Source: Paracoccaceae bacterium | Lineage (GTDB): Bacteria; Pseudomonadota; Alphaproteobacteria; Rhodobacterales; Rhodobacteraceae | Assembly: GCA_006226775.1 (NCBI GenBank) | Contig: SBGD01000016.1 | Location: 1-38,443 of the forward strand | DNA: 38,443 bases | Reading direction: 5' to 3' | Part shown: in pieces, positions 21,992-38,443 of the stretch | Numbering within the stretch: the first letter of the stretch is position 1 | How the letters are laid out: each line of letters opens with the position of its first letter | The notes under the pieces: model-generated | Told to the model about the DNA's origin: nothing | Databases searched by the model: none | Seen by the model: only the letters and a program-made list of their open reading frames with translations | Made by a program: the position numbers and the translations under genes

Positions 21992-22954
21992 ATGTCGGAC
22001 ATCCCCGGCCGCGATGCCGCCCACCCGCGCGACATCCCGCTTTCCGCCTGGAAGATGATCGCCGGGCGGGTCTGGCACCAGATCGGAGACGACCACATCG
22101 GCCTGATTGCGGCCGGTGTGGCGTTTTACGGACTCCTCGCGCTTTTTCCCGCGATCACCGCGCTGATGGCGATTGCCGGGCTGATCTTCGACCCGGCCCA
22201 GTTCACCGGCGAGATCGAGTCTGTCACCGCCTTCGTGCCGCCCAACGTGGCCGAGATCGTGCTGGGCCAGGCGGTCGCGGTCTCGGGCTCGCAGGAGGGG
22301 GGGCTCGGTCTTGCCGCCCTCTTCGGTATCGCCGTGGCCTTCTATTTCGCGTCGAACGGCGTGGCGAGCCTGATGGAGGGCATGAACGTCGCCTATGACG
22401 AGGCCGAGACCCGCGGCTTCGTCCGGCTGACCGTCACCAAGCTGTTGCTGACCTTCGTGCTTCTGATCGGGCTGATCCTCGGGTTGGGGGCGACGCTGGT
22501 GCTGCCCGGCATCCTGTCGATCCTGTCGCTGGGGCCTTTGACCGAACTGCTGATCGGGCTGGGCCGCTGGGCGGTGCTGCTGGCGATGACCATCGGCGGC
22601 ATCCTGATCATCTATCGCCACGCGCCCGACCGCGCCTCGGCGCGGCTGATCTGGCTCTGGCCGGGGGCGATCCTGGCCTGCCTGCTGTGGATCGCGGCCT
22701 CGGTGGGGTTTTCGCTCTATGTCGAGAATTTCGGCCGCTACAACGAGACCTTCGGCGCGCTGGCCGGGGTGGTGATCCTGTTGATGTGGCTGTGGCTGTC
22801 GGCCTATGTGCTGCTTTTGGGCGCCGAACTCAATGCCGAGGCCGAGGCCCAGGTGCGCCCCGACACCACCACCGGCCCCGGCATGCCGCTCGGCCTGCGC
22901 GGCGCGGTCAAGGCCGATGAACTGGCCGGGCGCAAGGGGTCCAGGCGCGGCTGA
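21992..22954 (+). CDS. YihY/virulence factor BrkB-family inner-membrane protein
   Basis: 320-residue YihY/BrkB-family protein with about six transmembrane helices. Family signatures include AAGVAFYGLLALFPAITALMA near residue 45 and NETFGALAGVVILLMWLWLSAYVLLLGAELNAE near 250-283. It was once misannotated as RNase BN; transport or envelope functions are suspected. It is last in the csbD-side run of tightly spaced genes, 4 bp after the DUF3618 gene, and convergent with the cytochrome c gene only 8 bp away. Confidence 0.9.
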   Translation: MSDIPGRDAAHPRDIPLSAWKMIAGRVWHQIGDDHIGLIAAGVAFYGLLALFPAITALMAIAGLIFDPAQFTGEIESVTAFVPPNVAEIVLGQAVAVSGSQEGGLGLAALFGIAVAFYFASNGVASLMEGMNVAYDEAETRGFVRLTVTKLLLTFVLLIGLILGLGATLVLPGILSILSLGPLTELLIGLGRWAVLLAMTIGGILIIYRHAPDRASARLIWLWPGAILACLLWIAASVGFSLYVENFGRYNETFGALAGVVILLMWLWLSAYVLLLGAELNAEAEAQVRPDTTTGPGMPLGLRGAVKADELAGRKGSRRG

Positions 22955-24042: not shown

Positions 24043-24605
24043 GCCACCTGCTCCCGCAGCGCCGAGGCGGTCAGCGCAAGCCCGGCCAGAAGATAGACCG
24101 GCGTCGCCAGCGTCAGCATCAGGATGCCGCCCAACTGCTGGCCGCCGAGATCGGGTGCGCGGCCGCAGACCTCGGCGTAGAGATCCGCGGGCGCCAGCAC
24201 CAGAAGCGCCCCCAGCAGGGTCATGTGCATCGAGGTCAGGAGCAGCCCGCCAGCTCCGGCAAGCGGCGGGGCAGGGGGCAGGGCACTGGTCCAGACCGCC
24301 AGCCCCGCCGCCAGGAACAGCGCCTGTTCCAGCACCAGCGCCAGACCGCCCGCCTGCGCCGGGGCGTGCCAGGCGGGCAGGTGGAAGCCCCAGACCACGG
24401 CGAACTCCAGCGCTGTGGCCAGCATCACCGGCGGCGCCCAATATCTCACAAGCGGCAGAGCCAGCGCGATCAGCGGTGCCGCCACCACCACCAGCAGCAT
24501 GTGCCGAAGCATGTGGCCGGGAAAGGCCCCCAGCCGCGCGGCCCAGTCGGGGCCCCAGGCGAGGCCGAGCGCGAGGGCGGCCCCCATGGCAAGTGCGGCG
24601 CGCAT
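24039..24605 (-). CDS. ctaG: Cytochrome c oxidase assembly protein, CtaG (caa3) family
   Basis: 188-residue multi-spanning membrane protein, about five or six helices, of the Bacillus-type CtaG family, which is needed for caa3-type oxidase assembly. Typical residues include HMLRHMLLVVVAAPLIALALP, the FHLPAWHAPAQ segment and SMHMTLLGALLVLAP with conserved His/Met that may handle copper. The start at 24605 overlaps the upstream stop by one base (TGATG). The longer open frame upstream is out of frame with the neighbouring gene and lacks family similarity. Confidence 0.88.
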   Translation of the reverse strand: MRAALAMGAALALGLAWGPDWAARLGAFPGHMLRHMLLVVVAAPLIALALPLVRYWAPPVMLATALEFAVVWGFHLPAWHAPAQAGGLALVLEQALFLAAGLAVWTSALPPAPPLAGAGGLLLTSMHMTLLGALLVLAPADLYAEVCGRAPDLGGQQLGGILMLTLATPVYLLAGLALTASALREQVA

Positions 24606-24967
24606 CACAGGCAACTCCCGATATAGAAGGCCGGCGCGGCGACGAAACTCACCCCGATGGCCGAGACCATGGACAAAAGCAGCCCGGCATGACCGAGAAA
24701 CCGCCTCCGGTGCCCGTCGGTGGGCGCGTCGTGGACATGATCGTTCTCCGACAAGAGGTCCCATTGCCGCCAGGCCCGCCAGGCGAAGACCGCGATCAGC
24801 CCCAGCGCCGCCAGCGTCATCAGCGCCACGCCCAGCCGCGCCTCCTCGGCGGCCCCGGCATGGGCGCAGGCCGAGGCGGTCCAGGCGTAGACCGCGCAGA
24901 AATGCACCGCCCAGACAATGGGCGCGGCGATCATCTGCCAGAGGCTGGTGTGACGCGCCTTCTCCAT
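24605..24967 (-). CDS. Small membrane protein of the caa3 oxidase cluster
   Basis: 120-residue protein with three likely transmembrane helices, at about residues 9-29, 45-67 and 93-115. PIVWAVHFCAVYAW and the C-terminal APAFYIGSCL are distinctive. Homologous small genes sit between oxidase subunits and ctaG in many proteobacterial caa3 clusters; the function is unknown, possibly assembly or a subunit IV-like role. The stop overlaps the ctaG start by one base, and the gene starts one base before the end of the fused oxidase gene. Confidence 0.75.
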   Translation of the reverse strand: MEKARHTSLWQMIAAPIVWAVHFCAVYAWTASACAHAGAAEEARLGVALMTLAALGLIAVFAWRAWRQWDLLSENDHVHDAPTDGHRRRFLGHAGLLLSMVSAIGVSFVAAPAFYIGSCL

Positions 24968-27565
24968 TCACAGCGCCCCCGGCAGCAGCCCGATCACCGC
25001 GGCGGTGACCAGGCAGGTGAGCACGAGGAAATGCCAGAACAGCGTCGTGTTCCACAGATCCGCATCATGGCGCGGCGTCAGCTTGCCGGCAAAGGCCCCG
25101 GCAAGGCAGTAAAGCTGCATCAGCACCCCGGCGAGGATATGGGCGCAGGTCCAGACCACCAGCGCCCAGATGATCGCCGGGTAGACATGCGACGTGGGCT
25201 CCATGTCCGGGACGGTGACGGCAAGGACGAACGCGCCGCCCCCCGCCAGCGCAAGCACCGGCGCGGCGGCCAAGAGCGCCCGGGTCAGGCCATGCCAGGC
25301 CCGGCGGTTGACGCTGCGCGCGACGCGGGTCGCGCCCCAGCTTGCGCAGAGCAGCATCGCCGCGGCAGCCACGAAGACCGGATCGGCATGTATCGCGCCC
25401 TCGGGCGGGAAATCCGGCCGCGCCGTCCAGTAGAAGAACACCCCGAAGACAAGGCTGGCAAATCCCGTCGCATCGCCCAGCATGGTGATGAAGACCCCCC
25501 ACCAGCCCGGCGCCTGCGGGCCCGAGACGTAGGTGGGCAGGCGCAGGCCCAGCCCCACGTCCTTCAGCGGCGCTTCGGGCACCTGCGCCGTCGAGGTCCA
25601 GAGCCACCAGACCACCGCCGCCAGTGCCAGCAGCGCCGAGATCACCGCCGGGACATACATGTGAAACGTGGGAAAGATGAAGGCCCCGCCGGTGAAGGCC
25701 GCCGCCCAAAGCGTGCACCACGCCGGGCCGGTGATCCGCGCGACATGCTGCGGCACCGCATCCACCGCCGAGGTCACCACCGTCTCGCGCAGGCCCTCGG
25801 GCGCGTCGGGGATGTAGAACCGCCCGCTATCCAGCCGGTCGAGGAACTCCTCCTGCTCCCAGAGCGGATAGCGCGAGGTGATGTAAGGCACGCTGCGCGA
25901 CCCCCAGCCGGGATCGGGCACGTCATGCGACCATTCCAGCGTGCCGCCCTGCCAGGGGTTGCGCTCGGTCGGCGGCTGGCGTTTCGGGCGCAGCAGGTCC
26001 CAGGCGAAGACGAGGATCCCGGCGGCCACCACGAAGGCGCCGACAGTCGAGATCAGGTTCAGCCAGTCCCAGCCGATCCCGCCGGGATAGGTATAGACCC
26101 GCCTTGGCATCCCCTGAAGCCCGGTCAGGTGCATCGGCAGGAAACAGATGTTGAACCCGGTGAAGGTCAGCCAGAAGGACCAGCGGCCCAACCGCTCGGA
26201 CATCTTCTTCTTGGCAAAGAACGGATAGTAGTAATAGACCCCGCCGATCACCGGAAAGATCATGCCGCCGAACAGCGTGTAATGCAGGTGCGCCACGATG
26301 AAATAGGTGTCATGCACCTGCCAGTCGAAGGGCGCGATGGCCAGCATCACCCCGGTCAGCCCGCCGGCGGTGAAGATCGCCACCGCCCCGGCGATCCAGA
26401 GCATCGGCAGGATCATCCGCACCCGCCCCAGCATCAGCGTCGCCATGAAGGCGAAAAGCTGCACGCCGGTGGGGATCACCACCGCCTCCGACGCCGCCGA
26501 GAAAAAGCCCAGCGACAGCGAGGGCAAGCCGGTGGTGAACATGTGATGCACCCAGAGCCCGAAGCTCAGGAAGCCGGTGCCGACCGCGCTGAGCACGATC
26601 CAGGAATAGCCCGCGATGGGCCGCTGCGCCGCGGTGGGCACGACCATCGCGGCAATGGCGATCGACGGCAGAAAGACGATATAGACCTCCGGGTGCCCGA
26701 AGATCCAGAACAGGTGCTGCCAGAGCATCGGGTCGCCGCCGCGCGCCGGGTCGAAGAACGGCCAGTCGAAGCTGCGCTCCATCTCGAACAGGAAATCCCC
26801 GGCGATCAGCGGCGGAAAGGCGAACAGGATCATGCCGCCCACCACCAGCACGTACCAGGCGTAAAGCGGCATCAGGTTGATGCGCATCCCCGGCGGGCGG
26901 CACTTGATGACGCCGACGATCAGCTCGACCGCGGCGGCGATGCTGGCGACCTCGATGAAGCTCAGGCCCAGCAGCCAGATGTCCGATCCCGGCCCTTCCG
27001 CCTTGGTCGCCAGCGGCGGGTACATGAACCAGCCGGAATCGGGTGCCACATTGAACAGCAGCGAGCCCATGACGAAGATCCCGCCGATCAGGAAACACCA
27101 GTAGCCATAGGCCGAGAGCCGCGGGAAGGGCATGTCGCGCGCACCCAAGAGGGCCGGCAGCAGCAGGATCGAGATCGCCTCGAACATCGGCACGGCAAAG
27201 AGGAACATCATCGCCGAGCCGTGCATGGTGAAGAACTGGTTGAAGCGGTCGGCGGTGAGGAAATCGTTTTCCGGCACCGCCAGTTGCACCCGCATCAAGA
27301 GCGCCAGCACCCCCGCGGCCAGCATGAAGCCGAAGGCGGTCAGCGAATACCAGGCGCCGACCTCGGAATTGTTCACCGCCGAGATGTAGCGCCAGCCTTT
27401 CGGTTGCGCCCAGACCGCCCGCAGCCGCTTTTCCTGCGCCTGCTGCACCTTGGGGTCGACCGGCGCGCGCAGCATCTCCTCGGTCGGCGGATAGATACCC
27501 TCGGGTGCGGCCTGGGGGATGGGATCGTGCCAGGCGCGGGGCGGCTCGGGGCGGGGTCGGGTCAT
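24968..27565 (-). CDS. ctaD: caa3-type cytochrome c oxidase subunit I-III fusion
   Basis: 865-residue fusion. Residues about 60-560 are subunit I, with twelve helices and the haem/CuB ligands and motifs HGSAMMF, GHPEVYIVFLP (CuB His and cross-linked Tyr), WVHHMF and VHDTYFIVAHLHYTLFGG (two haem His). A subunit III domain begins at about residue 640, with AWCTLWAAAFTGGAFIF and ending TLFWHFLVLTCLVTAAVIG. Such fusions are normal for caa3/CoxMNOP-type oxidases. The start at 27565 overlaps the subunit II stop by 4 bp (ATGA). It reduces O2 to water and pumps protons. The operon is preceded by an EcfG-type promoter. Confidence 0.95.
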   Translation of the reverse strand: MTRPRPEPPRAWHDPIPQAAPEGIYPPTEEMLRAPVDPKVQQAQEKRLRAVWAQPKGWRYISAVNNSEVGAWYSLTAFGFMLAAGVLALLMRVQLAVPENDFLTADRFNQFFTMHGSAMMFLFAVPMFEAISILLLPALLGARDMPFPRLSAYGYWCFLIGGIFVMGSLLFNVAPDSGWFMYPPLATKAEGPGSDIWLLGLSFIEVASIAAAVELIVGVIKCRPPGMRINLMPLYAWYVLVVGGMILFAFPPLIAGDFLFEMERSFDWPFFDPARGGDPMLWQHLFWIFGHPEVYIVFLPSIAIAAMVVPTAAQRPIAGYSWIVLSAVGTGFLSFGLWVHHMFTTGLPSLSLGFFSAASEAVVIPTGVQLFAFMATLMLGRVRMILPMLWIAGAVAIFTAGGLTGVMLAIAPFDWQVHDTYFIVAHLHYTLFGGMIFPVIGGVYYYYPFFAKKKMSERLGRWSFWLTFTGFNICFLPMHLTGLQGMPRRVYTYPGGIGWDWLNLISTVGAFVVAAGILVFAWDLLRPKRQPPTERNPWQGGTLEWSHDVPDPGWGSRSVPYITSRYPLWEQEEFLDRLDSGRFYIPDAPEGLRETVVTSAVDAVPQHVARITGPAWCTLWAAAFTGGAFIFPTFHMYVPAVISALLALAAVVWWLWTSTAQVPEAPLKDVGLGLRLPTYVSGPQAPGWWGVFITMLGDATGFASLVFGVFFYWTARPDFPPEGAIHADPVFVAAAAMLLCASWGATRVARSVNRRAWHGLTRALLAAAPVLALAGGGAFVLAVTVPDMEPTSHVYPAIIWALVVWTCAHILAGVLMQLYCLAGAFAGKLTPRHDADLWNTTLFWHFLVLTCLVTAAVIGLLPGAL

Positions 27566-28572
27566 TTCAGCCCCTCCAGGAAGGTCGCCAGCGCCGCAAG
27601 GTCCGCCGCCGCGAGATGGCCATAGGCGGGCATCCGCACGCCGGGCTTGATCGCCTCGGGCGCGCGCAGCCAGTCCTCGAGTGCGGCGCGGCTCATCGGC
27701 AGCACCCCCGCGGCCAGCGTGCGGCGCCCGCCCAGGTGGGTGAGATCCGGCCCGATCGTGCCGCGCGCGCCCAGGCCGCGGATGGCGTGACAGGCGCCGC
27801 AGCCTTCGCGCAGGAACACCGCCTGGCCGCGGCGCGCGGTCTCGGTCTCGGGCGGCGTGGCGGGGGCGGCCTGCTGCTCCAGCCAGGCGGCGAATTCTTC
27901 GGGGGGCAACACCACCGCGCGCAGGGCCATTTTCGCATGGCTTTCGCCACAGAACTCGGCGCATTGCCCGCCGTATTCGCCGGGCGTCACCGGCTCCAGC
28001 GACATGCGGGTTTCGCGCCCGGGGATCAGGTCGGTCTTGCCGCCAAGCGCGGGGATCCAGAGCGAGTGGATATAGCCGTTCGCCGCCAGCTCAAGTTCGC
28101 TGCGGCTGCCGGCGGGCAGGCGGATCTCGTTGGCGCTGATGACGGGGGTTTCGGTGTCCTCGGTGCGATATTCCACCCGCCACCACCAGGATTCGCCGGT
28201 CACCCGCAGGGTCAGCCCTTCGCCGAGGTCGCGCTGGCGCGGCATCTCCGACAGGGCAAAGGACAAAAGCACCGCCAGCACCACGGTCGGAAAGACCACG
28301 CCGCCGAACACGATCAGCCGGTCGGCGGCCTGCGGCGAGAACGCGCGTTCCTTCATCCGGGTGACGTAGAAAAACAGCCCGTTCATCGCCAGCCAGAGCA
28401 GAACCGCCCCGCCGAGCATCCACCAGAACAAGACGGCCAGCACCTCGGCATCGCGGCCTGCGGGGTCGAGCACCGATTGCGGCCCGCTGCAGGCAGTCAG
28501 CAGCAGGGCGCCGCCGCCCCAGCACAGCCGCCGGGGCGCGGTGGTCGAACCTTGCGCGTCCTCGTCCTGCAT
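27562..28572 (-). CDS. ctaC: caa3 oxidase subunit II with fused cytochrome c domain
   Basis: 336-residue lipoprotein. The N-terminus has a lipobox LTAC (Cys28), then two transmembrane helices at about 48-70 and 87-108. The CuA site is complete: His169, Cys204, Cys208, His212 and Met215 (GQCAEFCGESHAKM). A C-terminal cytochrome c domain has CGACH (Cys258-Cys261-His262) and a distal Met in GVRMPAYGH. It is the electron entry point for caa3 oxidases. GGGGAGG lies directly before the ATG. First gene of the operon. Confidence 0.95.
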   Translation of the reverse strand: MQDEDAQGSTTAPRRLCWGGGALLLTACSGPQSVLDPAGRDAEVLAVLFWWMLGGAVLLWLAMNGLFFYVTRMKERAFSPQAADRLIVFGGVVFPTVVLAVLLSFALSEMPRQRDLGEGLTLRVTGESWWWRVEYRTEDTETPVISANEIRLPAGSRSELELAANGYIHSLWIPALGGKTDLIPGRETRMSLEPVTPGEYGGQCAEFCGESHAKMALRAVVLPPEEFAAWLEQQAAPATPPETETARRGQAVFLREGCGACHAIRGLGARGTIGPDLTHLGGRRTLAAGVLPMSRAALEDWLRAPEAIKPGVRMPAYGHLAAADLAALATFLEGLK

Positions 28573-28651
28573 GGCCTCCCCTGGTGTTGGACCCGGCCCG
28601 ACGCCCTGTCAGGTGGATCTGCCGCGTCGCGTCAAAAGACCCGCGTGTCCC

Positions 28652-28676
28652 AACGCGGGCCGCGCGATCTTGTTCC
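28652..28676 (-). promoter_or_regulatory. EcfG-type promoter of the caa3 oxidase operon
   Basis: On the minus strand GGAAC (28676-28672), 16 bp, CGTT (28655-28652): exact consensus, 80 bp upstream of the ctaC ATG. A small hairpin, CCCGCGT/ACGCGGG, overlaps the -10 region and early leader. Confidence 0.75.
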
Positions 28677-28704
28677 CGGCGAATTTCCGGGCCGCAAAAG
28701 CAGA

Positions 28705-28726
28705 AAGCCCGCCGGGGGGCGGGCTT
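28705..28726 (-). terminator. Terminator after the PRC-barrel gene
   Basis: A 9-bp stem, AAGCCCGCC/GGCGGGCTT, with a 4-nt loop, followed on the minus strand by TCTGCTTTT. It lies 22-44 bp beyond the stop codon and separates this gene from the oxidase promoter. Confidence 0.8.
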
Positions 28727-28748
28727 CCTTTGGGTCATGCTGCGCGGG

Positions 28749-29594
28749 TCAGCTTTCGTGGGAGGGCAGCGCGTTCAGCTGCTCTTCGGTCATCGAGATA
28801 TAGACCCGGGTCTCCGAACCGTCCTCGGAGCGCAGGATGTCGATCTCGGACAGTTCCAGCTCGACCGGCTTTTCGCCGATGCCGAGGAAGCCGCCCACGT
28901 CGACGATCACCGATTTCACCTGGCCATCGTCATTGAGCAGGATGTCCGACACTTCGCCGATCCATTCGTCGTTGCTGTCATAGGCGGCGGCCCCGGTCAG
29001 GGTCTCGGCGGTCAGTTCCGCGCGCGGGGCCACCATGTAGCCTTCGCGTTCCACCATGCCGGCGCCATAGCCGACCGCCGGCTCGTTCATGTCGGCTTCG
29101 GCCATTCCCTCTTTCTCGGCGACCTCCATTTCCTTGGCGTCCGCGTCGGTGGCCATCTCGGTGGTCATAGCGGCGCGTTCATAGGCCGGGGCGTTTTCCA
29201 GGTCCGCGACCGGCGCATTCAGCACCAGGAAGAAATCGCTGTCATCGTCGGCGGTCGAATCGTCGGACACGAACTTCACCTGGTCCATGTCGACGGCGAC
29301 CTGGTTCTCACCCATGCCGAGGAAGCCGCCGATGTCGACGAGCACCGAATCGACGTCGCCGTCACGGGTCAGAATGACGTCGTTGATCTCTCCGATGTCG
29401 TCCCAGTCGTCCTGCAGGCCGTCGACGCCCATGCTGTCGGAGGCTTCGGCGCGATAGACTCGCATGCCGATGAATTCAGAGGCATGGATGGCCATCGGGT
29501 CGGCCTCGGCACGGAACATGGTATTGGCGTCCTGCGCGGAGGCGATGCCCCCGGTAAGGGCCACGAGTGCTGTCGAAATCATGAGCTTTTTCAT
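28749..29594 (-). CDS. Secreted two-domain PRC-barrel protein
   Basis: 281-residue exported protein. The signal peptide (MKKLMISTALVALTGGIASA, cleavage before QD) is followed by two PRC-barrel domains, at about residues 35-115 and 190-270. Each holds a VDSVLVDIGGFLGMGE or VKSVIVDVGGFLGIGE core. The linker between them is acidic and Met/Glu-rich. PRC-barrels occur in proteins for RNA processing and photosynthetic reaction centres; exported versions are common in alphaproteobacterial stress regulons, with no established reaction. AAGGAG precedes the ATG at 29594. An EcfG-like promoter lies about 55 bp upstream. Confidence 0.88.
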   Translation of the reverse strand: MKKLMISTALVALTGGIASAQDANTMFRAEADPMAIHASEFIGMRVYRAEASDSMGVDGLQDDWDDIGEINDVILTRDGDVDSVLVDIGGFLGMGENQVAVDMDQVKFVSDDSTADDDSDFFLVLNAPVADLENAPAYERAAMTTEMATDADAKEMEVAEKEGMAEADMNEPAVGYGAGMVEREGYMVAPRAELTAETLTGAAAYDSNDEWIGEVSDILLNDDGQVKSVIVDVGGFLGIGEKPVELELSEIDILRSEDGSETRVYISMTEEQLNALPSHES

Positions 29595-29648
29595 AGCTTT
29601 GTTCTCCTTCTCGGATTTTCCGGTAGCGCTGCGAGCGCCTGGATTGAG

Positions 29649-29673
29649 AACCGGCGGGGCTGGGGTTTGTTCC
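29649..29673 (-). promoter_or_regulatory. EcfG-like promoter of the PRC-barrel gene
   Basis: On the minus strand GGAAC (29673-29669), 16 bp, GGTT (29652-29649), 55 bp before the ATG. Confidence 0.6.
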
Positions 29674-29782
29674 GGCAGGACGGCAAGAATTCGCAAAATT
29701 CTTTTCCGGCTGCCGAAGTTTCCGCAGCGTCCGATCCGGGCCTCCGGCGCCCAAATCAGGCCCCGGTTCAGGCCCCTGCGCG

Positions 29783-30382
29783 TCACAGCAATTGGCCGCC
29801 GATCAGCCAGGCCAGACCGGTGTAGGGCAGCAGTGCGAGCAGGAAGAAAACCCCGTCGCGCGTCAGCAGCGACAGCGCCATGAAGGTGACGCCGATGGCC
29901 GCCACCGACGACGAGAACGGGATGAATTCCAGGAACGGCATCGCCAGCCCCGAGAGCAGGCAGAGCACCAGCGGCAGGTGGATCAGCGGCCGGTGAAACA
30001 GCACCGAGAGCCGGTCATGGGTGTGCCGGTCGACCCAGGCCATCACCGGCTGCGAGGTGTCGAGCGCCTTGCGCACCGCCTTGGCGCTGACCGATTGCCG
30101 CAACAGCCGCTGCGGCAGCCAGACCTCGTCGACGCTCAGCAGCAGTTGCGCCGAAATGATCGCGATCAGCACGCCGCAGACCATCGACACGCCGGGCACC
30201 CCCGACAGCGGCGTCGCGCAGAGCAGCGCCGGCACCAGCAGAAGCGGCAGCAGGCTGCGATGGCCCACCGCGTCGACGATGTCCTGCACCGTGACCTTGT
30301 CACCCTTGCTGACCGACCGGATGCTGTCGGCCAGATCGCCCAGAGAGCCCTGCTTCGGGCCGTGCTGCGTCGTTGTTGCCAT
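29783..30382 (-). CDS. exoD: ExoD-family membrane protein
   Basis: 199-residue membrane protein of the ExoD family (exopolysaccharide synthesis, first described in rhizobia, with a role in alkali tolerance). Residues 1-40 are soluble and include the GDKVTVQDIVDAVGHRS motif. Hydrophobic segments follow at about 45-85, 130-165 and 170-195. It has a very strong ribosome binding site (AGGAGGTGA) before the ATG at 30382. It is divergent from nepR2 with interlocked EcfG-like promoters between them. Confidence 0.88.
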   Translation of the reverse strand: MATTTQHGPKQGSLGDLADSIRSVSKGDKVTVQDIVDAVGHRSLLPLLLVPALLCATPLSGVPGVSMVCGVLIAIISAQLLLSVDEVWLPQRLLRQSVSAKAVRKALDTSQPVMAWVDRHTHDRLSVLFHRPLIHLPLVLCLLSGLAMPFLEFIPFSSSVAAIGVTFMALSLLTRDGVFFLLALLPYTGLAWLIGGQLL

Positions 30383-30404
30383 AATGTCACCTCCTGGAGG
30401 TGCA

Positions 30405-30430
30405 AACCCGGGCCTCGGTCCGAATGTTCC
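30405..30430 (-). promoter_or_regulatory. EcfG-like promoter of exoD
   Basis: On the minus strand GGAAC (30430-30426), 17 bp, GGTT (30408-30405), 22 bp before the exoD ATG. Confidence 0.55.
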
Positions 30431-30437
30431 CGCAATC

Positions 30438-30462
30438 GGAACCCGGAGGCGGCTGCGGGGTT
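30438..30462 (+). promoter_or_regulatory. EcfG-like promoter of the second nepR
   Basis: GGAAC (30438-30442), 16 bp, GGTT (30459-30462), 47 bp before the nepR2 ATG and back to back with the exoD promoter. Confidence 0.6.
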
Positions 30463-30509
30463 GGGATCCCGAGCGATCAGACCGGAATGACAGATGGCAG
30501 CACAGTATC

Positions 30510-30668
30510 ATGCAGCAAAGTGACACCGAAACCGACACCTGGCTGAAGGCGCAGGTCGAGACCAACCTCAAGCGCGTCTATGGCGCGCCCGACCGCGCGC
30601 CCTTGCCGGAGCGATTCGAGAAACTGCTTGCGGATCTGCGCCGGGCAGAGGCGGAGCGTCGGCAATGA
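30510..30668 (+). CDS. nepR2: Second NepR-family anti-sigma factor
   Basis: 52-residue NepR paralogue. The core NLKRVYGAPDRAPLPERFEKLL aligns with NLRRVYSDLSEEPLPDRFVQLL of the canonical NepR at 31785-31961. NepR proteins bind EcfG in unstressed cells and are sequestered by phosphorylated PhyR. No sigma gene is coupled to this copy, and it ends at a bidirectional terminator shared with phyR. The start codon lacks a strong Shine-Dalgarno sequence. The paralogue may bind another EcfG or tune feedback (inference). Confidence 0.82.
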   Translation: MQQSDTETDTWLKAQVETNLKRVYGAPDRAPLPERFEKLLADLRRAEAERRQ

Positions 30669-30754
30669 CCGGCACCTGAGTCCTTGCGCCCCGGCCCGGC
30701 CGGGGCTGCCGCGGGCAACCGCGGCGCGGTGATGTAACGAGTGAGCGGTTGAAG

Positions 30755-30786
30755 AAGGCGCCCGTGCCTTGCGGCAGGGGCGCCTT
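30755..30786. terminator. Bidirectional terminator between nepR2 and phyR
   Basis: AAGGCGCCC (30755-30763) pairs with GGGCGCCTT (30778-30786), with an inner TGCC/GGCA extension. The convergent genes end on either side. Confidence 0.75.
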
Positions 30787-30854
30787 TGACGTGGCAGCGG
30801 GCGCCATCGCCCCCGCCGGTCCCGGCGTGGCAGGCACCATGCCGGGGGTTGGCG

Positions 30855-31676
30855 TCAGGAGGTCTTGAGCGTCTGGGTGCTGGCGAAGAAATTCGCCTGG
30901 CTCACCGCCGATTGCACCTGCTCCTCGGAATAGGGCTTGGTGATCAGGAAGGCGGGCTCGGGGCGTTCGCCGGTCAGCAGCCGCTCGGGGAAGGCGGTGA
31001 TGAAGACCACCGGCACCTCGCCCATCTCCTCCATGATGAGGTTCACCGCGTCGATGCCCGAGGAATTGTCGGCCAGCTGGATATCGGCGAGGATCATGTC
31101 GGGGGGCGTGCGCCGCGCCAGCGCCACCGCCTCGTTGCGGGTGCGCGCGGTGCCGGTTACCTCGTGGCCCATGCCCTCAACGATGGCGGAAATGTCGAGC
31201 GCGATGATCGCCTCGTCCTCGATCACCAGCACCTTGCCGCGGATCGTGCCCGACATCTCGTTGCGGGCGATGACCACCAGTTCGGCGGCCTCGTCCTGCG
31301 TGACATCCAGGATCGACGCGATGTCGCCGATCGGAAAGCCCTCGATCGAATGCAGCAAAAGCGCCTCGCGGGTATTGGCGGTCAGCCCCGACAGCCGCCA
31401 CTGCGCCCGCGCCTCGGGCGAACCTGCGGCATCGCTTTCCTCCACGGGAGAGCCGGAAGAGGCCCAGATGCCGTGGAAGGTCCGGAACAGCGCCACCTTG
31501 GGGGCCATGTCGCCGCCCAGGATCTCGGGGTCCGACAACAGCGCCTCCAGGGTCGCGGCGGCATAGTGATCGCCGGTCTGCTGATTGCCGGTCAGCGCGC
31601 GTGCATAGCGCCTGAGATAGGGCAATTCCGCAGCGATCTGCCCGGTCATGTCGGTGGCGGTCTGGGTGTCTGTCAT
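30855..31676 (-). CDS. phyR: PhyR anti-anti-sigma response regulator
   Basis: 273-residue PhyR. Residues 1-140 form the sigma-like domain (sigma-2 and sigma-4 parts) that mimics EcfG; residues 147-265 are the receiver domain. The phospho-acceptor is Asp198 (MILADIQLAD), with acidic pair Glu153/Asp154, Thr227 and Lys247 (ITKPY), in the PhyR-type PEPAFLITKPY context. When phosphorylated, it captures NepR and frees EcfG. GAGGAT precedes the ATG at 31676. It is divergent from nepR-ecfG, the classic arrangement. Confidence 0.96.
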   Translation of the reverse strand: MTDTQTATDMTGQIAAELPYLRRYARALTGNQQTGDHYAAATLEALLSDPEILGGDMAPKVALFRTFHGIWASSGSPVEESDAAGSPEARAQWRLSGLTANTREALLLHSIEGFPIGDIASILDVTQDEAAELVVIARNEMSGTIRGKVLVIEDEAIIALDISAIVEGMGHEVTGTARTRNEAVALARRTPPDMILADIQLADNSSGIDAVNLIMEEMGEVPVVFITAFPERLLTGERPEPAFLITKPYSEEQVQSAVSQANFFASTQTLKTS

Positions 31677-31705
31677 GGGATCCTCGAAAAATGTGTCTGC
31701 GATCT

Positions 31706-31730
31706 GGAACCAAACGCCGTTCTGCGTGTT
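31706..31730 (+). promoter_or_regulatory. EcfG-like promoter of nepR-ecfG
   Basis: GGAAC (31706-31710), 16 bp, TGTT (31727-31730), 54 bp upstream of the nepR ATG. The -10 deviates from CGTT, but the site overlaps the opposing phyR promoter in the expected place for autoregulation. Confidence 0.6.
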
Positions 31731-31737
31731 ATGTTCC
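31713..31737 (-). promoter_or_regulatory. EcfG-type promoter of phyR
   Basis: On the minus strand GGAAC (31737-31733), 16 bp, CGTT (31716-31713), exact consensus, 36 bp before the phyR ATG. It interlocks with the opposing nepR-ecfG promoter. Confidence 0.75.
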
Positions 31738-31784
31738 GGCGATGGTGCAAAAAAGCATCCGGCGCTTCTCAGAACTGTATCGGC

Positions 31785-31961
31785 ATGATGGCAAAAAACA
31801 GCAAGACAACCAAGCTCGAACGGCAAATCGATGAAAACCTGCGGCGGGTCTACTCGGACCTGTCCGAGGAACCCCTGCCCGACCGTTTCGTCCAGCTGCT
31901 TGACGAATTGCGCAAGCAGGAAAACTCCAAATCCGACACCCAGTCCGGGGAGGACTCGTGA
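31785..31961 (+). CDS. nepR: NepR anti-sigma factor
   Basis: 58-residue NepR, starting MMAKNSK; a second ATG at 31788 gives 57 residues. The two-helix core LERQIDENLRRVYSDL and EEPLPDRFVQLLDEL is diagnostic. It holds EcfG inactive until phospho-PhyR binds it. It overlaps the ecfG GTG start by 4 bp (GTGA), so the two are translationally coupled and produced in fixed ratio. Confidence 0.93.
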   Translation: MMAKNSKTTKLERQIDENLRRVYSDLSEEPLPDRFVQLLDELRKQENSKSDTQSGEDS

Positions 31962-32512
31962 ACAAGACCCGTGATCCGAAAGAAGAGCTCGTCGAGCATC
32001 TTCCGGCCATGCGCGCCTTTGCCATGAGCCTGACCCGCAACAATGCGGCGGCCGATGACCTCGTGCAGGACGCCGTCGTCAAGGCGTGGTCGAATTTCGA
32101 CAAGTTCAAGCCCGGCACCAACCTGCGTGCCTGGCTGTTCACGATCCTGCGCAACACCTATTATTCGCTCTACCGCAAGCGCAAGCGCGAGGTCGAGGAT
32201 CCCGACGGCATCATGGCCGGCAAACTGTCGGAAAAGCCGGCCCATGACGGGCACCTGGCGATGGCGGATTTCCGTGTCGCCTTTGCCCAGCTCACCGACG
32301 AACAGCGCGAGGTGCTGATCCTGGTGGGGGCCGAGGGCTTTTCCTACGAGGATGCCGCCGAGATGTGCGGCTGTGCCATCGGCACCATCAAGAGCCGCAC
32401 CAACCGCGCCCGCGCGCGGCTGGCGGAACTGATGCACCTGGACGAGGATGCCGACCTGGGGATCACCGATGCGGCCACCTTGGCCGTGGTGACCGGGAAA
32501 CCCGCCGCATGA
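31958..32512 (+). CDS. ecfG: EcfG general stress sigma factor
   Basis: 184-residue ECF sigma factor of the EcfG (ECF15) group. Sigma-2 spans about residues 12-80 ([25 protein letters not shown]); sigma-4 spans about 108-160, with the helix-turn-helix [20 protein letters not shown]. It directs RNA polymerase to GGAAC-N16/17-CGTT promoters, nine of which are proposed in this window. The GTG start has GGGGAGG before it and overlaps nepR. Its stop overlaps the kinase start (ATGA), giving one nepR-ecfG-kinase operon. Confidence 0.95.
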
Positions 32513-34254
32513 CACTGCCGTCGTCGGCTCTCAGCCGGCTTGCCCGGCCGGGGCTTGCCTTGCGGCTGGCGTTCATCCTGAGCCTTGCGATCCTGCCGCT
32601 GGGGCTGATCTCGGTATTGCAGACCGGCAAGGTGATCGAGGAACGCCAGAGCCTGTCTGCCGCCGCCCTGCTGGAAGAGACCCAGCGGGCGGTCTCGGTC
32701 ACCCGCGACATGATCCGCGCCGCCGAGGATACGGCGCAGACCCTGCGCCTGACGCTGCCGGACCTGCGCGACACGCCCGGCACCTGCACCGCGGTGCTGA
32801 CCCGGATCGCCGAGAATTCGCCGGATTTCGTCTTTGTCGGCTTTGTCGATGGCGACATGGGCGTGACCTGCAGTTCGCGCGGCGCCTTTGTCCTTGACGG
32901 CCCGGTGTCGAACAACCCCGACCTTCTGGCGCGCCAGCCGGGCATCTTCGTCTCGACGGTGGAGTTTCTGGCCGGTCGCGCCACGCTCAACGTCACCGTG
33001 CCGGTGATGTCCGAGGACGGCTTTGCCGGCGCGGTCTGGATCGCGGTGCCGCTGGTCAACCTCAACCAGGCGCTGGCCGAGACCGCGCCGGATGTCGACC
33101 TGGTGCTGTTTCGCCCCGATGGCGCGGTGCTGGCGACCGAGCAATTGTCCGACGACCGGCGCCTCGTTCTGCCCCGCGACCGCACGCTGGCCGCGCTTGC
33201 CACCGAGGGCCGCCAGGCCTTTCGCGCCGAGAACCGCGAAGGCATGGAGCGCGATTTCGCCGTCGCGCCGATCGTCGAAGGTGCGGTGCTGGTGCTGGGA
33301 AGCTGGGCGCCGCGCCATCACGGGCTGGTGCTGTCGACCTATGCCGAGGCGATTGCGCTCTATTTCCCCTTCGCCATCTGGATCATCGCGGTGCTGGTGG
33401 CCTATGTCGGCGTGCATCGCCTGGTGATCCGCCACGTCCGCCGCTTGCGGTCGTGGATGCGGCTCTATGCCCAGGGCCAGATCGATTTTTCCCGCGCCCG
33501 GCTGGACAACCCGCCGCTTGAACTTGAGGAGGTGGCCGACGCCTTTCGCGCCATGACCGAACGGCTCAGCGAGCAGGACCGTCACCGCCAGGAGGATCTC
33601 GAGGAAAAGACCGTGCTGCTGCGCGAGGTGCATCACCGGGTCAAGAACAACCTGCAACTGATCTCGTCGATGATGAACATCCAGATCCGCGCCACCGGCA
33701 ACCCTGTGGCCAAGCACCTGCTGCGCCGGATCCAGGACCGGGTGATGGCACTCTCGGCGATCCACCGTTACCTCTACATGGCGCGCAAGCTGTCGATGGT
33801 GCGGGCCGATACGCTGCTGGCGGACATCATCCAGCAACAGGTCGCGGTCGGCACGCTGGAAGAGGCGGGCCACCATATCCGGGTCTCGACCCAGCTTGAC
33901 CCGATCGAGGTCAACCCCGACCAGTCGGTGCCGCTGTCGCTGCTGGTGGCCGAGGCGGCGGTCAATGCGGTCAAGCATTCCGGCGCCGATCAGGACCCCG
34001 GCGGCGGCTGGATCGACATCGCGCTGAAAAAGGTCGACAACGGCATGGTCACGCTCAGCGTGGTCAATTCGCGCAACGAGGCCGAGGACGGCAGCGCGGA
34101 GGACCCCCCCGACGGCACCGGCCTCGGCTCGCGCCTGATCCAGACCTTCGCGGCCCAGTTGAACGGCACCATCGAGACCTCCGAGACGCCCGAGCGCTAC
34201 GAATTGCACGTCACCTTCCCCCTGGCGTGGCACGACAGCGACCCGGACCAGTAA
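32509..34254 (+). CDS. phyK: HisKA_2-type sensor histidine kinase, probable PhyR kinase (PhyK)
   Basis: 581-residue membrane kinase. Transmembrane helices are at about residues 16-38 and 281-302, enclosing an extracytoplasmic sensor domain of about 240 residues with CACHE-like length and no assigned ligand. A HAMP-like linker (303-360) leads to the HisKA_2 dimerisation domain with [12 protein letters not shown] (His375/His376). The HATPase domain has its N-box at about Asn486 (VNAVKHSG) and G-box GTGLGS at about 536. This architecture is that of PhyK-type kinases, which phosphorylate PhyR. It is coupled to ecfG by a 4-bp overlap. Confidence 0.92.
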
Positions 34255-34282
34255 GCGTCCGGCTTTTTCCTGGCGCAGCGGG

Positions 34283-34307
34283 GGAACCCGATGCGCCGCG
34301 GCGCGTT
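34283..34307 (+). promoter_or_regulatory. EcfG-type promoter of the PLDc_N gene
   Basis: GGAAC (34283-34287), 16 bp, CGTT (34304-34307), an exact consensus, 55 bp before the ATG. Confidence 0.75.
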
Positions 34308-34362: not shown

Positions 34363-34548
34363 ATGTTGGAGATCACCGGACTCGGCGGCCTGATCGTACT
34401 GGTACTGGACATCTGGGCCATCGTATCGGTCGTGGGCTCCACGGCATCGACGGGCAAGAAGGTGCTCTGGGTGCTCCTGATCCTGCTGCTGCCGATCCTG
34501 GGCTTCATCATCTGGCTGGTGGCCGGCCCGCGCGCCGCGCGCGCCTGA
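34363..34548 (+). CDS. PLDc_N-domain small membrane protein
   Basis: 61-residue protein with two transmembrane helices (about 5-25 and 33-54). The PLDc_N motif WAIVSVVGSTASTGKKVLW is followed by LLPILGFIIWLVAGPR. The domain normally forms the membrane anchor of cardiolipin synthases; stand-alone versions are widespread. GGAAGGA precedes the ATG, and an EcfG promoter lies upstream. The phospholipase D-like gene follows 238 bp later; together they may act on membrane lipids under stress (inference). Confidence 0.85.
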   Translation: MLEITGLGGLIVLVLDIWAIVSVVGSTASTGKKVLWVLLILLLPILGFIIWLVAGPRAARA

Positions 34549-34786: not shown

Positions 34787-36370
34787 TTGGAACGACACGC
34801 GCAGCAAGGTTCACCAGGGGCGGCGTCAGGCCCCGCCGCGGTCGAGACCCTGAAGGTGCTGGTCACCGCCTCGGAAACCTATCCGGAACTGGAACGCGCG
34901 TTCCTAGCGGCGGAGAAGGTCGTGCTGGCCGGGTTCCGCATCTTCGATCTGTCGACGCGGCTGCACGCGCCCGAGGCGCGCGAGATCGGCGAGACCTGGG
35001 CCGATCTTTTTGTTCATACCCTCGACCGGGGGGTCTCGATCGCGCTGACCGTGGCCGATTTCGACCCGATCGCCGCGCCCGAGCTGCATCGTCTGGCCTG
35101 GTCCACCCAGCGCCAGATCGACGAGGTGCGCGCGCGCACCACCGCCCCCGGGCGGCTGACCTTCAAGGTGGCGATGCATGACGCCCGGGTCGGGCTGCTC
35201 CACAAGATCCTGTTCTACCCGGTGGTGCGCCACCGCGAAGCCCGCCTATCCCGGCAGTGGCTGAAGATGTCGGACGACGAAAAGGCGCTGTTCCGCCAGG
35301 AAACCCCCGGCCTGCAGCAGCGCTGCTACGAGACCGAGGACGGGCGGCTCTGTTTCCGGCTGCAACTGGCCGATCTGCACCCAGCGACCCATCATCAGAA
35401 GATCGCCGCCATCGACCGCAGGGTCGCCTTCATCGGCGGGCTCGACCTGAACGAGCGGCGCTATGACACCAAGGCGCATGACCGCCCGGCCGAGGAAACC
35501 TGGCACGACATCCAGGTGCGCGTCACGGGCGGCGTGGCCGAGGATGCGCACCGCCATCTCGAGAGCTTCACTGATGTGGTCGCCGGCAAGGCCGATCCGC
35601 CGGTGGTCTCGCCGGCCTTCCTGCGCACGCTGTCGCGCTCGGCCGGGCCGCTGGCGCGGCTGTCGCCGGCCAACCTCGTCAACGAGATCGAGACGCGCCA
35701 TCACCACGAGATTGCCCGGGCGCGCAAGCTGATCTACCTGGAAACCCAGTACCTGCGGCATCGCCCGCTGGCCCGCGCGCTGGTGCGCCGGGCGCGCGAT
35801 TGCCCCGAGCTCAAGCTGATCGTGGTGCTGCCCGCCTCGCCGGAAGAGGTGGCCTTTTCCCATACCCGGGGCCTCGATGCCCGCTTCGGGCTGTTTCTCA
35901 AGCTGCGCTTCCTGCGCGATCTGCGGCGGGCCTTCGGCAAGGACCGCCTGCTCGTCGCCTCGCCGGTGCAGGCGCGCAGATCCGAGGGCAACGGGGCGGA
36001 CACGCTGCGCCGCTCGCCGCTGATCTACGTGCATACCAAGGTGTCGATCTTCGACGAGACCGCCGCCATCGTTTCCTCGGCCAACCTCAATGGCCGCAGC
36101 TTCCGCTGGGATACCGAGACCGGCGTCGCGCTGACCCGCCCCGAGGATGTGGCCCAGGTGCGCAAGCGCGTCATGGGCCATTGGGTGCCCGAGGGCGCGG
36201 GGGCCGACCATCTGGACATCGACACCTGTTTCGAGCTTTGGCAGGCCTTCGTCGACGCCAACAGCACCTGCCTGCCCGAGCATCGCAGGGGCTTCCTGGT
36301 GCGTCACGATTCCAAGGCGGGCGAGGATATTGCCGTCCCCGCACCCGGGGTGCCCGAAGAAATGGTCTGA
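34787..36370 (+). CDS. Phospholipase D-family protein
   Basis: 527-residue PLD superfamily enzyme with two HKD motifs: HHQKIAAID (His203, Lys205, Asp210) and HTKVSIFD (His416, Lys418, Asp423), each followed by the usual IGGLDLNERRYD or SSANLNGRSF segment. There is no signal peptide or clear membrane helix, so it is probably cytosolic or peripherally membrane-bound. It is most like PLD-type phospholipases that cleave or transfer phosphatidyl groups. A TTG at 34787 is the only start that keeps the whole N-terminus; a GTG near 34856 is an alternative. GAGGCGGGA lies upstream of the TTG. It is followed at 38 bp by the flavoprotein gene. Confidence 0.88.
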   Translation: MERHAQQGSPGAASGPAAVETLKVLVTASETYPELERAFLAAEKVVLAGFRIFDLSTRLHAPEAREIGETWADLFVHTLDRGVSIALTVADFDPIAAPELHRLAWSTQRQIDEVRARTTAPGRLTFKVAMHDARVGLLHKILFYPVVRHREARLSRQWLKMSDDEKALFRQETPGLQQRCYETEDGRLCFRLQLADLHPATHHQKIAAIDRRVAFIGGLDLNERRYDTKAHDRPAEETWHDIQVRVTGGVAEDAHRHLESFTDVVAGKADPPVVSPAFLRTLSRSAGPLARLSPANLVNEIETRHHHEIARARKLIYLETQYLRHRPLARALVRRARDCPELKLIVVLPASPEEVAFSHTRGLDARFGLFLKLRFLRDLRRAFGKDRLLVASPVQARRSEGNGADTLRRSPLIYVHTKVSIFDETAAIVSSANLNGRSFRWDTETGVALTRPEDVAQVRKRVMGHWVPEGAGADHLDIDTCFELWQAFVDANSTCLPEHRRGFLVRHDSKAGEDIAVPAPGVPEEMV

Positions 36371-36408: not shown

Positions 36409-37812
36409 ATGAAACACCTCACCTGTGATGTTGCCGTGATCGGCGCCGGGACCGCGGGGCTCGCCGCGCAAAGCGTCGCCCGCAAGGCCGGCGCGCAAGT
36501 GCTGCTGATCGATCCGGCCTATTCCGGCACCACCTGCGCCACCGTGGGCTGCATGCCCTCGAAACTCCTGATCGCCGCCGCCGATGCGGCGCATGGCGTG
36601 CGCACCGCCGAGACCTTCGGCATCCGCGCCACGGCCGAGGTCGATGGCCCCGCGGTCATGGCCCGCGTCCGCAAGCTGCGCGATCATTTCGTGGCCGGGG
36701 TGACCCGCGCCATCGACCGCCTGCCCGAGGAGGTGCGGATCACCGCCCGTGCCAGCTTTTCCGGCCCCGGAACCCTCGATCTTGACGATGGCCGCAGCGT
36801 CGCCGCCCGCGCGGTCGTCATCGCCACCGGCGCGCGCCCGGCGATCCCCGGGCCGTTCAAGGCAGTCTCCGAGCATATCCTGACCAACGAAAGCCTGTTC
36901 GAGATGACAGACCTGCCGCGCTCGGTCGCGGTGATCGGCGCCGGGGCGCTGGGCCTCGAAATGGCGCAGGCGCTGCATCGGCTGGGGGTGCGGGTCGAGG
37001 TCTTCGACATGGGCGAGACGGTCGCGGGCCTGCGCGACGCGGCGGTCTCGGAGGTGCTGCGCGACCTGCTCAAGGCCGAGATGCCGCTGCACCTGGGCGT
37101 GAAGCCCGAGGTTTCCCCGGAACCGGAGGGCGTGACGATATCCTGGGAGGGCCGCTCGCGCGACTTCCAGCACCTGCTGGTCGCCGCCGGGCGTCCGGCC
37201 AATCTCGACGGGCTGCACCTCGAGCGTGCCGGGATCGACCTGGGCGAGGATGGCATGCCCGGGATCGACCCCGAGACCCTGCGCTGCGGCGAGACCTCGG
37301 TCTTCATCGCCGGGGACGCCAATGGCCACATGCCGCTTTTGCACGAAGCCTCGCACGAGGGCTGCATCGCCGGGCGCAATGCCGCCGCCTTCCCCGAGAT
37401 CACCCGTTTCGCGCGGCATGTGCCCTTCGTGCTGACCTTCACCCGGCCCGAAGCCGCCCAGATCGGCACCATCCCCGACGAGGACGGCAGCGAGATCGTC
37501 ACCGCCTCGGCCTCCTACGAGGACCAGGGCCGCGCGCGGGTCGAGGCGCGGCTGGGCGGTCTCTGCCGGATCCATGCGCGCCGCTCGGACGGTCGGCTGA
37601 CCGGGGCGAGCCTTTGTGCGCCCGATGCCGGTCATCTCGGTCATCTCTTCGCGCTGGCCATCGACGCGGGGCTGAGCGCCGGCGATCTGCTGGCCATGCC
37701 GTTCTATCACCCGACGCTGGAGGAAGGGCTGAAACCGGCGCTGCGCGCATTGTGCGAGCAGGTGGATCAGCCGCATGATGCCAGCCGCCAGGACGACGCC
37801 CCCTGCGCCTGA
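36409..37812 (+). CDS. Dihydrolipoamide dehydrogenase-like flavoprotein disulfide reductase
   Basis: 467-residue class I pyridine nucleotide-disulfide oxidoreductase. The FAD-binding GAGTAG motif is at residues 12-17, the redox-active disulfide is Cys43/Cys48 (CATVGC), the NAD(P)-binding GAGALGLE is near 183, and the C-terminal HPTLEE (His434, Glu439) supplies the active-site base. The interface domain is intact. Lipoamide dehydrogenases usually cluster with their complexes; none is here, so a stress-related disulfide reductase role is possible (inference). GGAG is located at 36401-36404. It is convergent with PaaX, 6 bp away. Confidence 0.9.
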   Translation: MKHLTCDVAVIGAGTAGLAAQSVARKAGAQVLLIDPAYSGTTCATVGCMPSKLLIAAADAAHGVRTAETFGIRATAEVDGPAVMARVRKLRDHFVAGVTRAIDRLPEEVRITARASFSGPGTLDLDDGRSVAARAVVIATGARPAIPGPFKAVSEHILTNESLFEMTDLPRSVAVIGAGALGLEMAQALHRLGVRVEVFDMGETVAGLRDAAVSEVLRDLLKAEMPLHLGVKPEVSPEPEGVTISWEGRSRDFQHLLVAAGRPANLDGLHLERAGIDLGEDGMPGIDPETLRCGETSVFIAGDANGHMPLLHEASHEGCIAGRNAAAFPEITRFARHVPFVLTFTRPEAAQIGTIPDEDGSEIVTASASYEDQGRARVEARLGGLCRIHARRSDGRLTGASLCAPDAGHLGHLFALAIDAGLSAGDLLAMPFYHPTLEEGLKPALRALCEQVDQPHDASRQDDAPCA

Positions 37813-37818: not shown

Positions 37819-38443
37819 CTATTTGCCGGGATCGCCGCCGATTGCCGCTTCGAGATCCTCGAGCCGCGGGCGGGGGTAGCGGTCCAGGAGGTCGGAGACG
37901 AGGTCGCGGCAGCGCGGTCCCTGCCAGGCCGGGGGAAAGACGTGATCGGGCAGGACCGGGGTCTTGAGCACGATCCGCCGCCAGCCGTGCACCACCAGCA
38001 CCCGGATCGCCGCGACCTCGAGCGGGCCGAGGGCCGGCGCGGGATCGAGACAGGGGCGCACCGCCGCCAGCGCCGCCGCGAAGTTGCGCGTCATCATGAC
38101 GGTGGCGTCATCGCAGACCCGGCTGGTCATCCAGTCGGGCAGGGCGGTGCTGGCCTCGACCTTCGTGACAAAGAGCCCGGAGCCGACCGGCGCGACCGCG
38201 GTCACCAGCACATGCGACGCGATCCAGACGCCCGGCATCCCGTCGCCCGGCGCGGGCTGGCCGGGGTTGGCCAAAGCGACCCAGGCGCGCTCGGCCGCCT
38301 GGCCGGTGGCATAGATGCGCGGCGAGGCTTCGGTGGTCTGGGCCCGGCCCCGAGGGGTCAGGAAATAGACGCTGGTGCGGCCGTGGCGCTGGCTGTCGAT
38401 CCAGCCGTCCTTGCGCAGGCGGTGAATGGCGACCCGCATCGCC
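37819..38443 (-). CDS. PaaX-family regulator, cut by the window edge
   Basis: Partial gene; the 5' end lies beyond 38443. The readable C-terminal 200-odd residues begin within the winged helix (AMRVAIHRLRKDGWIDSQRHG), with the wing SVYFLTPRGRAQ, and continue into the PaaX effector region, including ALEVAAIRVLVVHGWRRIVLKTP-like sequence and FPPAWQGPRCRDLV near the end. PaaX represses phenylacetate catabolism and responds to phenylacetyl-CoA. No paa genes are visible in the window. Confidence 0.85.
   Translation of the reverse strand, partial: AMRVAIHRLRKDGWIDSQRHGRTSVYFLTPRGRAQTTEASPRIYATGQAAERAWVALANPGQPAPGDGMPGVWIASHVLVTAVAPVGSGLFVTKVEASTALPDWMTSRVCDDATVMMTRNFAAALAAVRPCLDPAPALGPLEVAAIRVLVVHGWRRIVLKTPVLPDHVFPPAWQGPRCRDLVSDLLDRYPRPRLEDLEAAIGGDPGK

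Follow-up and report, generated by a model that had tools for sequence, protein, structure and literature searches.

The sigma factor of the general stress response (GSR) is usually regarded as part of the core genome. The GSR locus considered here, with genes for PhyR, NepR, EcfG, and a HisKA_2/HWE histidine kinase, lies on contig SBGD01000016.1 of a marine Paracoccaceae bacterium (assembly GCA_006226775.1); the whole contig, 38,443 bp in length, was analyzed and is referred to below as the window. Its closest named relative by PhyR (82%) is Marinovum algicola FF3, which belongs to the same genus as the window's genome and shares with the window some 16 kb of neighboring genes and a second NepR; the M. 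algicola locus, however, adjoins a gene taken to be trpS on a contig that also bears an rRNA operon, whereas that of the window stands on a repABC contig with an added oxidase module and phospholipase D (PLD) gene. On the extrachromosomal side, R. litoralis pRLO149_94 and R. ponti p1 likewise carry the GSR core on a plasmid, the former together with photosynthesis genes and at a different tree position, and D. shibae pDSHI02, a 153-kb chromid, has the same core with PLD, presumed Crp/Fnr, and PLDc_N genes and the sole PhyR among the matches listed. pDSHI02 differs in its RepA-I replicon (excerpts of PMC4373377), in a DNA identity of 73.7% across 41% of the core, and in having a single NepR within the 40.8 kb read. 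The chromosomal Rhodobacteraceae locus (R. sphaeroides RSP_1272-1274, PMC5830050; M. algicola FF3) has the same gene set, divergent layout, and promoter motif, and the excerpts of that paper describe a chromosomal R. sphaeroides PhyR that matters for membrane stress rather than general stress. A plasmid-encoded EcfG-type sigma factor is also described in the available part of a study on Rhizobium etli (PMC3892343), although the EcfG2 of that species is paralogous to an EcfG1 on the chromosome, whereas the window, a repABC contig, holds the only copy found. Taken against these systems, the window probably represents an extrachromosomal repABC replicon that bears the cell's only GSR switch together with neighboring target genes, the locus having been relocated within the genus or its kin.

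On its domain content, the locus is a canonical alphaproteobacterial GSR switch with an already known mechanism, and its location is an unusual but recurrent variant. PhyR, NepR, EcfG, the HisKA_2 kinase, and a second NepR had all been named in the initial annotation, and each was recovered in its place with a Pfam match above the curated cut-off (Table 1; gene starts are from a non-standard, codon-usage gene caller written for this analysis). PhyR also passes the NCBIfam PhyR model (349.5 bits; cut-off 240) and aligns with solved PhyR structures over almost its full length, while EcfG, whose gene overlaps nepR by 4 bases, exceeds the cut-off of the NCBIfam equivalog NF009198. For NepR (31785-31961), NCBIfam gave no match, nor did a search of solved structures at E 0.01. 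Among NCBIfam models the kinase matches PhyK best, though below the cut-off (209.9 bits; cut-off 750), and the ATPase domain falls slightly under that of Pfam (24.8 vs. 26.4 bits); 3 further HWE kinases are encoded on other contigs of the same genome. In the core, PhyR (-) is followed by NepR-EcfG-kinase (+). NepR would hold EcfG until, under stress, HisKA_2/HWE kinases (the local one and others elsewhere) phosphorylate PhyR, whose phosphorylated form would bind NepR and free EcfG to initiate transcription at GGAAC-N16/17-NGTT promoters. Its predicted targets include phyR and nepR-ecfG themselves, which would amount to positive feedback, as well as local stress genes, the oxidase module, and off-contig genes, a sigma-32 gene among them; the second NepR, behind an EcfG-type site of its own, would likely serve as a negative feedback brake.

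The draft genome, 4.58 Mb in 104 contigs with an estimated completeness of 100%, yielded a single PhyR, all other matches being at or below 25 bits, and a single EcfG, the runner-up reaching 45 bits at 27% identity; a second GSR beside a chromosomal one is ruled out, as PhyR and EcfG are single. It had been proposed initially that the replicon either controls the cell's stress response or carries a second, mobile one, and the latter alternative is unsupported, with no other PhyR or EcfG copy found in the draft genome and no search made for transfer genes. The former is favored, being supported by the single copies, by an empty chromosomal site, and by strict promoter sites before genes on other contigs. 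Within the genus, PhyR occurs in two of four genomes (the window's and that of M. algicola FF3); the two other congeners (G001 and G003, the latter outside the displayed family-search results and checked separately) gave no PhyR match, and the EcfG search returned only generic ECF matches there at 24-30% identity.

The M. algicola locus lies on a 210,360-bp contig (NZ_FNYY01000008, hereafter C24) that is taken as chromosomal because it carries a complete 16S-23S-5S operon along with genes that we read as trpS, murJ, rnhB, clpB, and pyrF (names that, like rhomboid, ArsR, Crp/Fnr, LigD, and Ku, were assigned by reading the sequence and are presumed). The window is collinear from 16.7 to 37.7 kb with C24 from 41.0 to 57.1 kb, from the AI-2E permease to the oxidoreductase; within that stretch only the window has the oxidase module (23.0-28.6 kb) and the PLD gene (34.9-36.4 kb), and M. 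algicola carries a few small genes that the window is without. On C24 the locus directly follows trpS and a rhomboid-like gene, the latter being 43.7 kb away from the ArsR-like gene. Rhomboid, ArsR, permease, PLD, and murJ genes are consecutive in G001 and G003, without insert, and in the window's own genome rhomboid adjoins murJ directly, leaving the chromosomal site empty. Fixation of the island on the chromosome of all relatives had been named as counting against the initial proposal, and it does not hold: one of three congeners has the island on the chromosome, and the two others lack it. Horizontal transfer from outside the genus, as opposed to relocation from a Marinovum-like chromosome, would account for this absence and for the patchy presence of the system in the family, yet we consider such a route to the plasmid unlikely, as PhyR and EcfG of the window are sister to those of M. 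algicola (support 99) and both loci share a gene order that runs from the AI-2E permease through the oxidoreductase, as well as a second NepR. The locus would have moved between chromosome and replicon in the genus or close kin, and such relocation would have been repeated in the family. Genes other than stress genes also lie in the M. algicola insert, as do a second EcfG (43% identity) and, on the opposite strand, a weak NepR-like gene; the latter two, with genes read as LigD and Ku and several EcfG-type sites, occupy C24 69107-69783 and 72715-75984, about 14-20 kb away from the GSR core.

At least seven target promoters within 6 kb had been anticipated, and seven GGAAC-N16/17-NGTT sites were found in the 5,736-bp interval at 28572-34307, where 2,000 first-order Markov simulations gave a mean of 0.16 and a maximum of 3. 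Across the window, an N16 spacer gives 9 sites and the other spacers between 8 and 29 give 0-3; chance as the source of the seven sites is ruled out by this profile and the simulation together. N16 and N17 total 10 sites in the window, 9 of which stand upstream of a gene in the correct orientation, the tenth being within acnB. The -10 element is the strict CGTT at three of the interval's sites, GGTT at three, and TGTT at one; as GGTT and TGTT are also found across the family (198 sites between phyR and nepR-ecfG in relatives: CGTT 133, GGTT 28, TGTT 27, AGTT 10), such sites in the window are of a common kind. The divergent phyR / nepR-ecfG layout recurs in 106 of 107 distinct relatives' loci, 94 of the 106 having sites in both directions between the genes, and a peak at spacer 21 in the relatives' table is, by our reading, a product of overlapping inverted sites. 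Putative EcfG-type promoters precede both core and stress genes.

Beyond the contig, all strict sites (GGAAC-N16-CGTT) off the two GSR contigs were collected from the four genomes of the genus and genes were called around each. Promoter positions were occupied by 14 of the 42 sites that the window's genome has and by 7 of 19 for M. algicola, but by 2 of 32 and 1 of 28 for the two PhyR-less congeners (Fisher's test: 14/42 vs. 3/60, p 2e-4; with M. algicola, 21/61 vs. 3/60, p 3.4e-5). The fetched DNA of the PhyR-less congeners is more intergenic (0.24-0.26 vs. 0.16-0.18), which makes the control conservative. Among the genes behind the 14 sites are those for a sigma-32 factor (site 270 bp before the gene start), DUF892, DUF3309, DUF7218, DJ-1/PfpI, MgtC, hemerythrin, PRC-barrel, and DUF305 proteins, a carbohydrate phosphorylase, a receiver-like protein, and one protein without a family match; the distance from site to gene, 30 bp for MgtC and 34 bp for DJ-1/PfpI, is the same before the like genes in the window's genome and M. 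algicola. We take most, though not all, of the 14 sites to be real. All 14, and 39 of the 42 overall, are on contigs where no repC was found (the sole replicon marker sought within this genome), and each of the 14 is likely chromosomal. The four genomes make the genus a natural experiment, with the locus on a chromosomal contig in one species, on a repABC contig in one, and absent in two, and promoter-site positions elsewhere differ in step with its presence.

A plasmid that acts as a self-contained stress module, with little effect past its own genes, would explain why sites are dense on the GSR contigs (5 of 47 strict sites on 0.8% of the window's genome; 9 of 28 on about 4% of M. algicola's) and why the strict motif shows no overall genome excess. 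Such a module, first suggested by the raw motif counts and proposed initially as a self-contained island, is rendered very unlikely by the position test against the PhyR-less congeners, by the genes behind the off-contig sites (among them DUF892, DUF3309, DUF7218, DJ-1/PfpI, MgtC, hemerythrin, sigma-32, and the receiver-like gene beside an HWE kinase), and by the 3 HWE kinases on other contigs. Control of the cell's response by the replicon is the part of the initial interpretation that is supported, while self-containment and a second copy have been set aside. The receiver-like single-domain gene (27.1 bits, below the Pfam cut-off of 30.2) lies within the 41.0-43.1 kb stretch of another contig (G000:C58, L194), has an EcfG-type site 41 bp upstream, and adjoins a PAS-HWE kinase; the pair could possibly form a second phosphorelay arm.

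The location recurs on other replicons. PhyR matches at E 1e-15 occur in 37 PLSDB records, 15 of them from Rhodobacterales and representing ten strains or species (PLSDB results may omit records very close to the window's genome). Of these ten, seven loci were examined with their annotation (D. shibae pDSHI02, R. litoralis pRLO149_94, R. ponti, G. aquarius, SC52, S2214, and K. vulgare, in which no kinase gene adjoins ecfG), P. turbinis was read without annotation, and R. antarcticum and G. fulvus were read via genome contigs (L142, L143). Three of the ten belong to genomes in the sample (G031, G254, and G300), and PhyR is single copy there among the matches listed. The assumption that this core is normally chromosomal is borne out in part: the PhyR contig measures at least 2 Mb in 23 of 39 relatives fetched, but a plasmid location, with ten other Rhodobacterales strains or species in PLSDB, is not exceptional, which makes the window less singular and more interesting as part of a pattern. 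Among 394-395 genomes taken evenly out of a larger group, PhyR (E 1e-20) is present in 207 of 395 and EcfG (E 1e-40) in 209 of 395, so the system is patchy in the family. A PhyR and EcfG tree was built with 58 rows (the window and 57 of the 107 distinct loci), 38 of which were labeled by a plasmid record or a contig of at least 2 Mb, with M. algicola called chromosomal by content and the window plasmid by repABC. The plasmid label requires 9 changes, at least 7 of which cannot be avoided given the well-supported branches, and its clustering does not exceed that of shuffled labels; a single plasmid clade was rejected.

Among the open-access papers searched, none was found to name these plasmid loci as GSR, and no title or abstract opening among the matches listed describes a plasmid-borne sole GSR, which is weak evidence of absence. 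Excerpts of PMC4373377 report up-regulation in light starvation for a kinase and a sigma factor on the 153-kb chromid of D. shibae, together with an adjacent gene, and we take these to be the pDSHI02 GSR core, as the gene order fits. The same chromid is described, in the part of PMC9426580 available, as essential at least under salt shock, for which the presence of the species' GSR switch on it is a possible and testable reason. On the R. litoralis photosynthesis plasmid, the GSR core stands about 13 kb from pufC. Whether the Rhodobacteraceae GSR master switch is in general an accessory module that hops between replicons, having no match in about half of the family and having moved repeatedly between chromosome and plasmids or chromids, such that a sole copy on a replicon makes a chromosome-wide regulon depend on plasmid carriage and Marinovum adds an EcfG-controlled second NepR brake, is a proposition that we hold to be evenly balanced.

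The repABC cassette had been placed about 15 kb from the GSR genes, and it lies 14.6 kb from phyR. Its RepA (42.9%) and RepC (32.6%) are distant from their top-ranked PLSDB records, with no record reaching 60% identity, and RepC found no PLSDB match at E 1e-20, a laxer limit giving distant matches only; the cassette, distant from every PLSDB record, may belong to an undescribed compatibility group. RepC relatives at 39-50% identity were found in 4 of 394 genomes (G127:C28, G182:C74, G175:C5, and G062:C26), on contigs other than the PhyR/EcfG contigs among the matches listed, and a dedicated GSR plasmid lineage was rejected on that ground. At the left contig end, acnB (134-2923) shows 82% DNA likeness to plasmid acnB of Leisingera, Paracoccus denitrificans, and Shinella; among the 12 matches listed in a near DNA search with window 1-24900, coverage was of acnB or TRAP genes only.

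It could be argued that the contig is chromosomal, with repABC an integrated or decayed remnant and the GSR merely at another chromosomal place, since the contig is open at both ends, all three Rep proteins fall below their NCBIfam cut-offs, and the PhyR contigs of at least 2 Mb in 23 of 39 relatives are likely chromosomal. We judge this improbable, given that the rep genes are all open frames in A-B-C order with perfect palindromes after repC, that four other repC loci (five in all) mark the genome as plasmid-rich, that acnB on the contig resembles plasmid copies, and that the place which the locus has on the M. algicola chromosome is empty in this genome; from these features we infer an autonomous replicon.

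Several further observations count against a sole, plasmid-borne switch with chromosome-wide reach. The contig is not closed, its ends being undefined and without terminal overlap, and RepA, RepB, and RepC score under the cut-offs of their top NCBIfam matches (339.4/348.45, 199.8/201.5, and 128.5/150), the C-terminal Pfam domain of RepC likewise being under its cut-off. Genome-wide, the strict motif occurs 47 times in the window's genome and the reversed pattern 57 times, with no raw excess (28 vs. 60 in M. algicola; 32 vs. 84 and 28 vs. 102 in the PhyR-less genomes), the GC content of the PhyR-less congeners is lower (0.59-0.60 vs. 0.65-0.67), and of the 14 off-contig sites in promoter position, no more than 2 were found to recur at equal distance before a like gene in M. 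algicola. The 2 of 106 divergent loci without a site in either direction, those of R. litoralis (L283) and S2214 (L288), are both plasmid loci. In D. shibae, as stated in excerpts of PMC4373377, the four replicons other than the 72-kb chromid are without vital function under the conditions of that paper, and many genes of the 153-kb chromid are down in the dark. If the switch is nevertheless extrachromosomal and single copy, as we think probable, stress tolerance may hang on a plasmid: loss of the replicon would abolish the response, and its gain could bring the response to a cell with a chromosome not wired for it.

The second NepR, placed 186 bp past the 3' end of phyR, is rare among relatives: in the 107 loci, most of which were read 10 kb to each side and which do not include the window itself, a genuine second NepR near the core occurs in M. 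algicola and one other locus (L078) only, and a third locus with two NepR matches (L131) proved to have a weak overlapping antisense match. NepR paralogues of M. extorquens are described in the available part of PMC4814048 as binding PhyR; one of them has an EcfG promoter, which is discussed there as possible negative feedback. By analogy, the second NepR of the window is likely a negative-feedback brake.

Table 1. Features of the GSR locus, the repABC cassette, and their surroundings in the window.
Feature	Position	Strand	Remarks
Perfect palindrome TATGACCGCGGTCATA, two copies	12743-12798		Downstream of repC; candidate centromere
repABC cassette	12794-16269	-	RepA 15046-16269, RepB 14117-15046, RepC 12794-13900
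AI-2E family permease	16666-17718	-	EcfG-type site 17728-17752, merely 10 bp upstream (weak)
Crp/Fnr-like regulator (presumed)	17836-18567	-	Named from sequence reading; similar gene at M. algicola locus
CsbD	19274-19471	+	Family match E 7.6e-21; EcfG-type site upstream, 19206-19230 (+)
Holin-X-like protein	20487-20885	+	
DUF3618 protein	20875-21987	+	
YihY/BrkB-like protein	21992-22954	+	
Cytochrome oxidase module	22963-28572	-	Cytochrome c, CtaG-like, subunit I (long open reading frame), subunit II-cytochrome c
EcfG-type site (CGTT)	28652-28676	-	80 bp upstream of oxidase module
PRC-barrel protein	28749-29594	-	EcfG-type site 29649-29673
ExoD-like protein	29783-30382	-	EcfG-type site 30405-30430 (N17)
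EcfG-type site before second NepR	30438-30462	+	
Second NepR, 52 aa	30510-30668	+	Pfam 29.6 bits (cut-off 25.7)
PhyR	30855-31676	-	Sigma-like domain and receiver; Pfam above curated cut-off
Overlapping divergent EcfG-type sites	31706-31737	+/-	31706-31730 (+) for nepR-ecfG; 31713-31737 (-) for phyR
NepR, 58 aa	31785-31961	+	Pfam 54.7 bits (cut-off 25.7)
EcfG sigma factor	31958-32512	+	Sigma regions 2 and 4; Pfam above cut-off
HisKA_2/HWE histidine kinase	32509-34254	+	HisKA_2 71.1 bits (cut-off 22.3)
PLDc_N small membrane protein	34363-34548	+	EcfG-type site upstream, 34283-34307 (+)
Phospholipase D-family protein	34856-36370	+	
Pyridine nucleotide-disulphide oxidoreductase	36409-37812	+	Right limit of synteny with M. 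algicola

Among the neighboring genes, the csbD reported initially is present. The oxidase module, with its EcfG-type site, sits inside the stress cluster and has no counterpart at the M. algicola locus; none of the relatives' loci (mostly 10 kb each side) showed oxidase markers. Rfam and ARAGORN scans of the window gave no match. A PaaX-like regulator stands near the GSR locus both in the window (37819-38439, cut by the contig end) and on D. shibae pDSHI02 (L118, 10798-11592), which may be coincidence, and a PIN-domain toxin and PhdYefM antitoxin pair is found at 5902-6548, 6 kb from repC.

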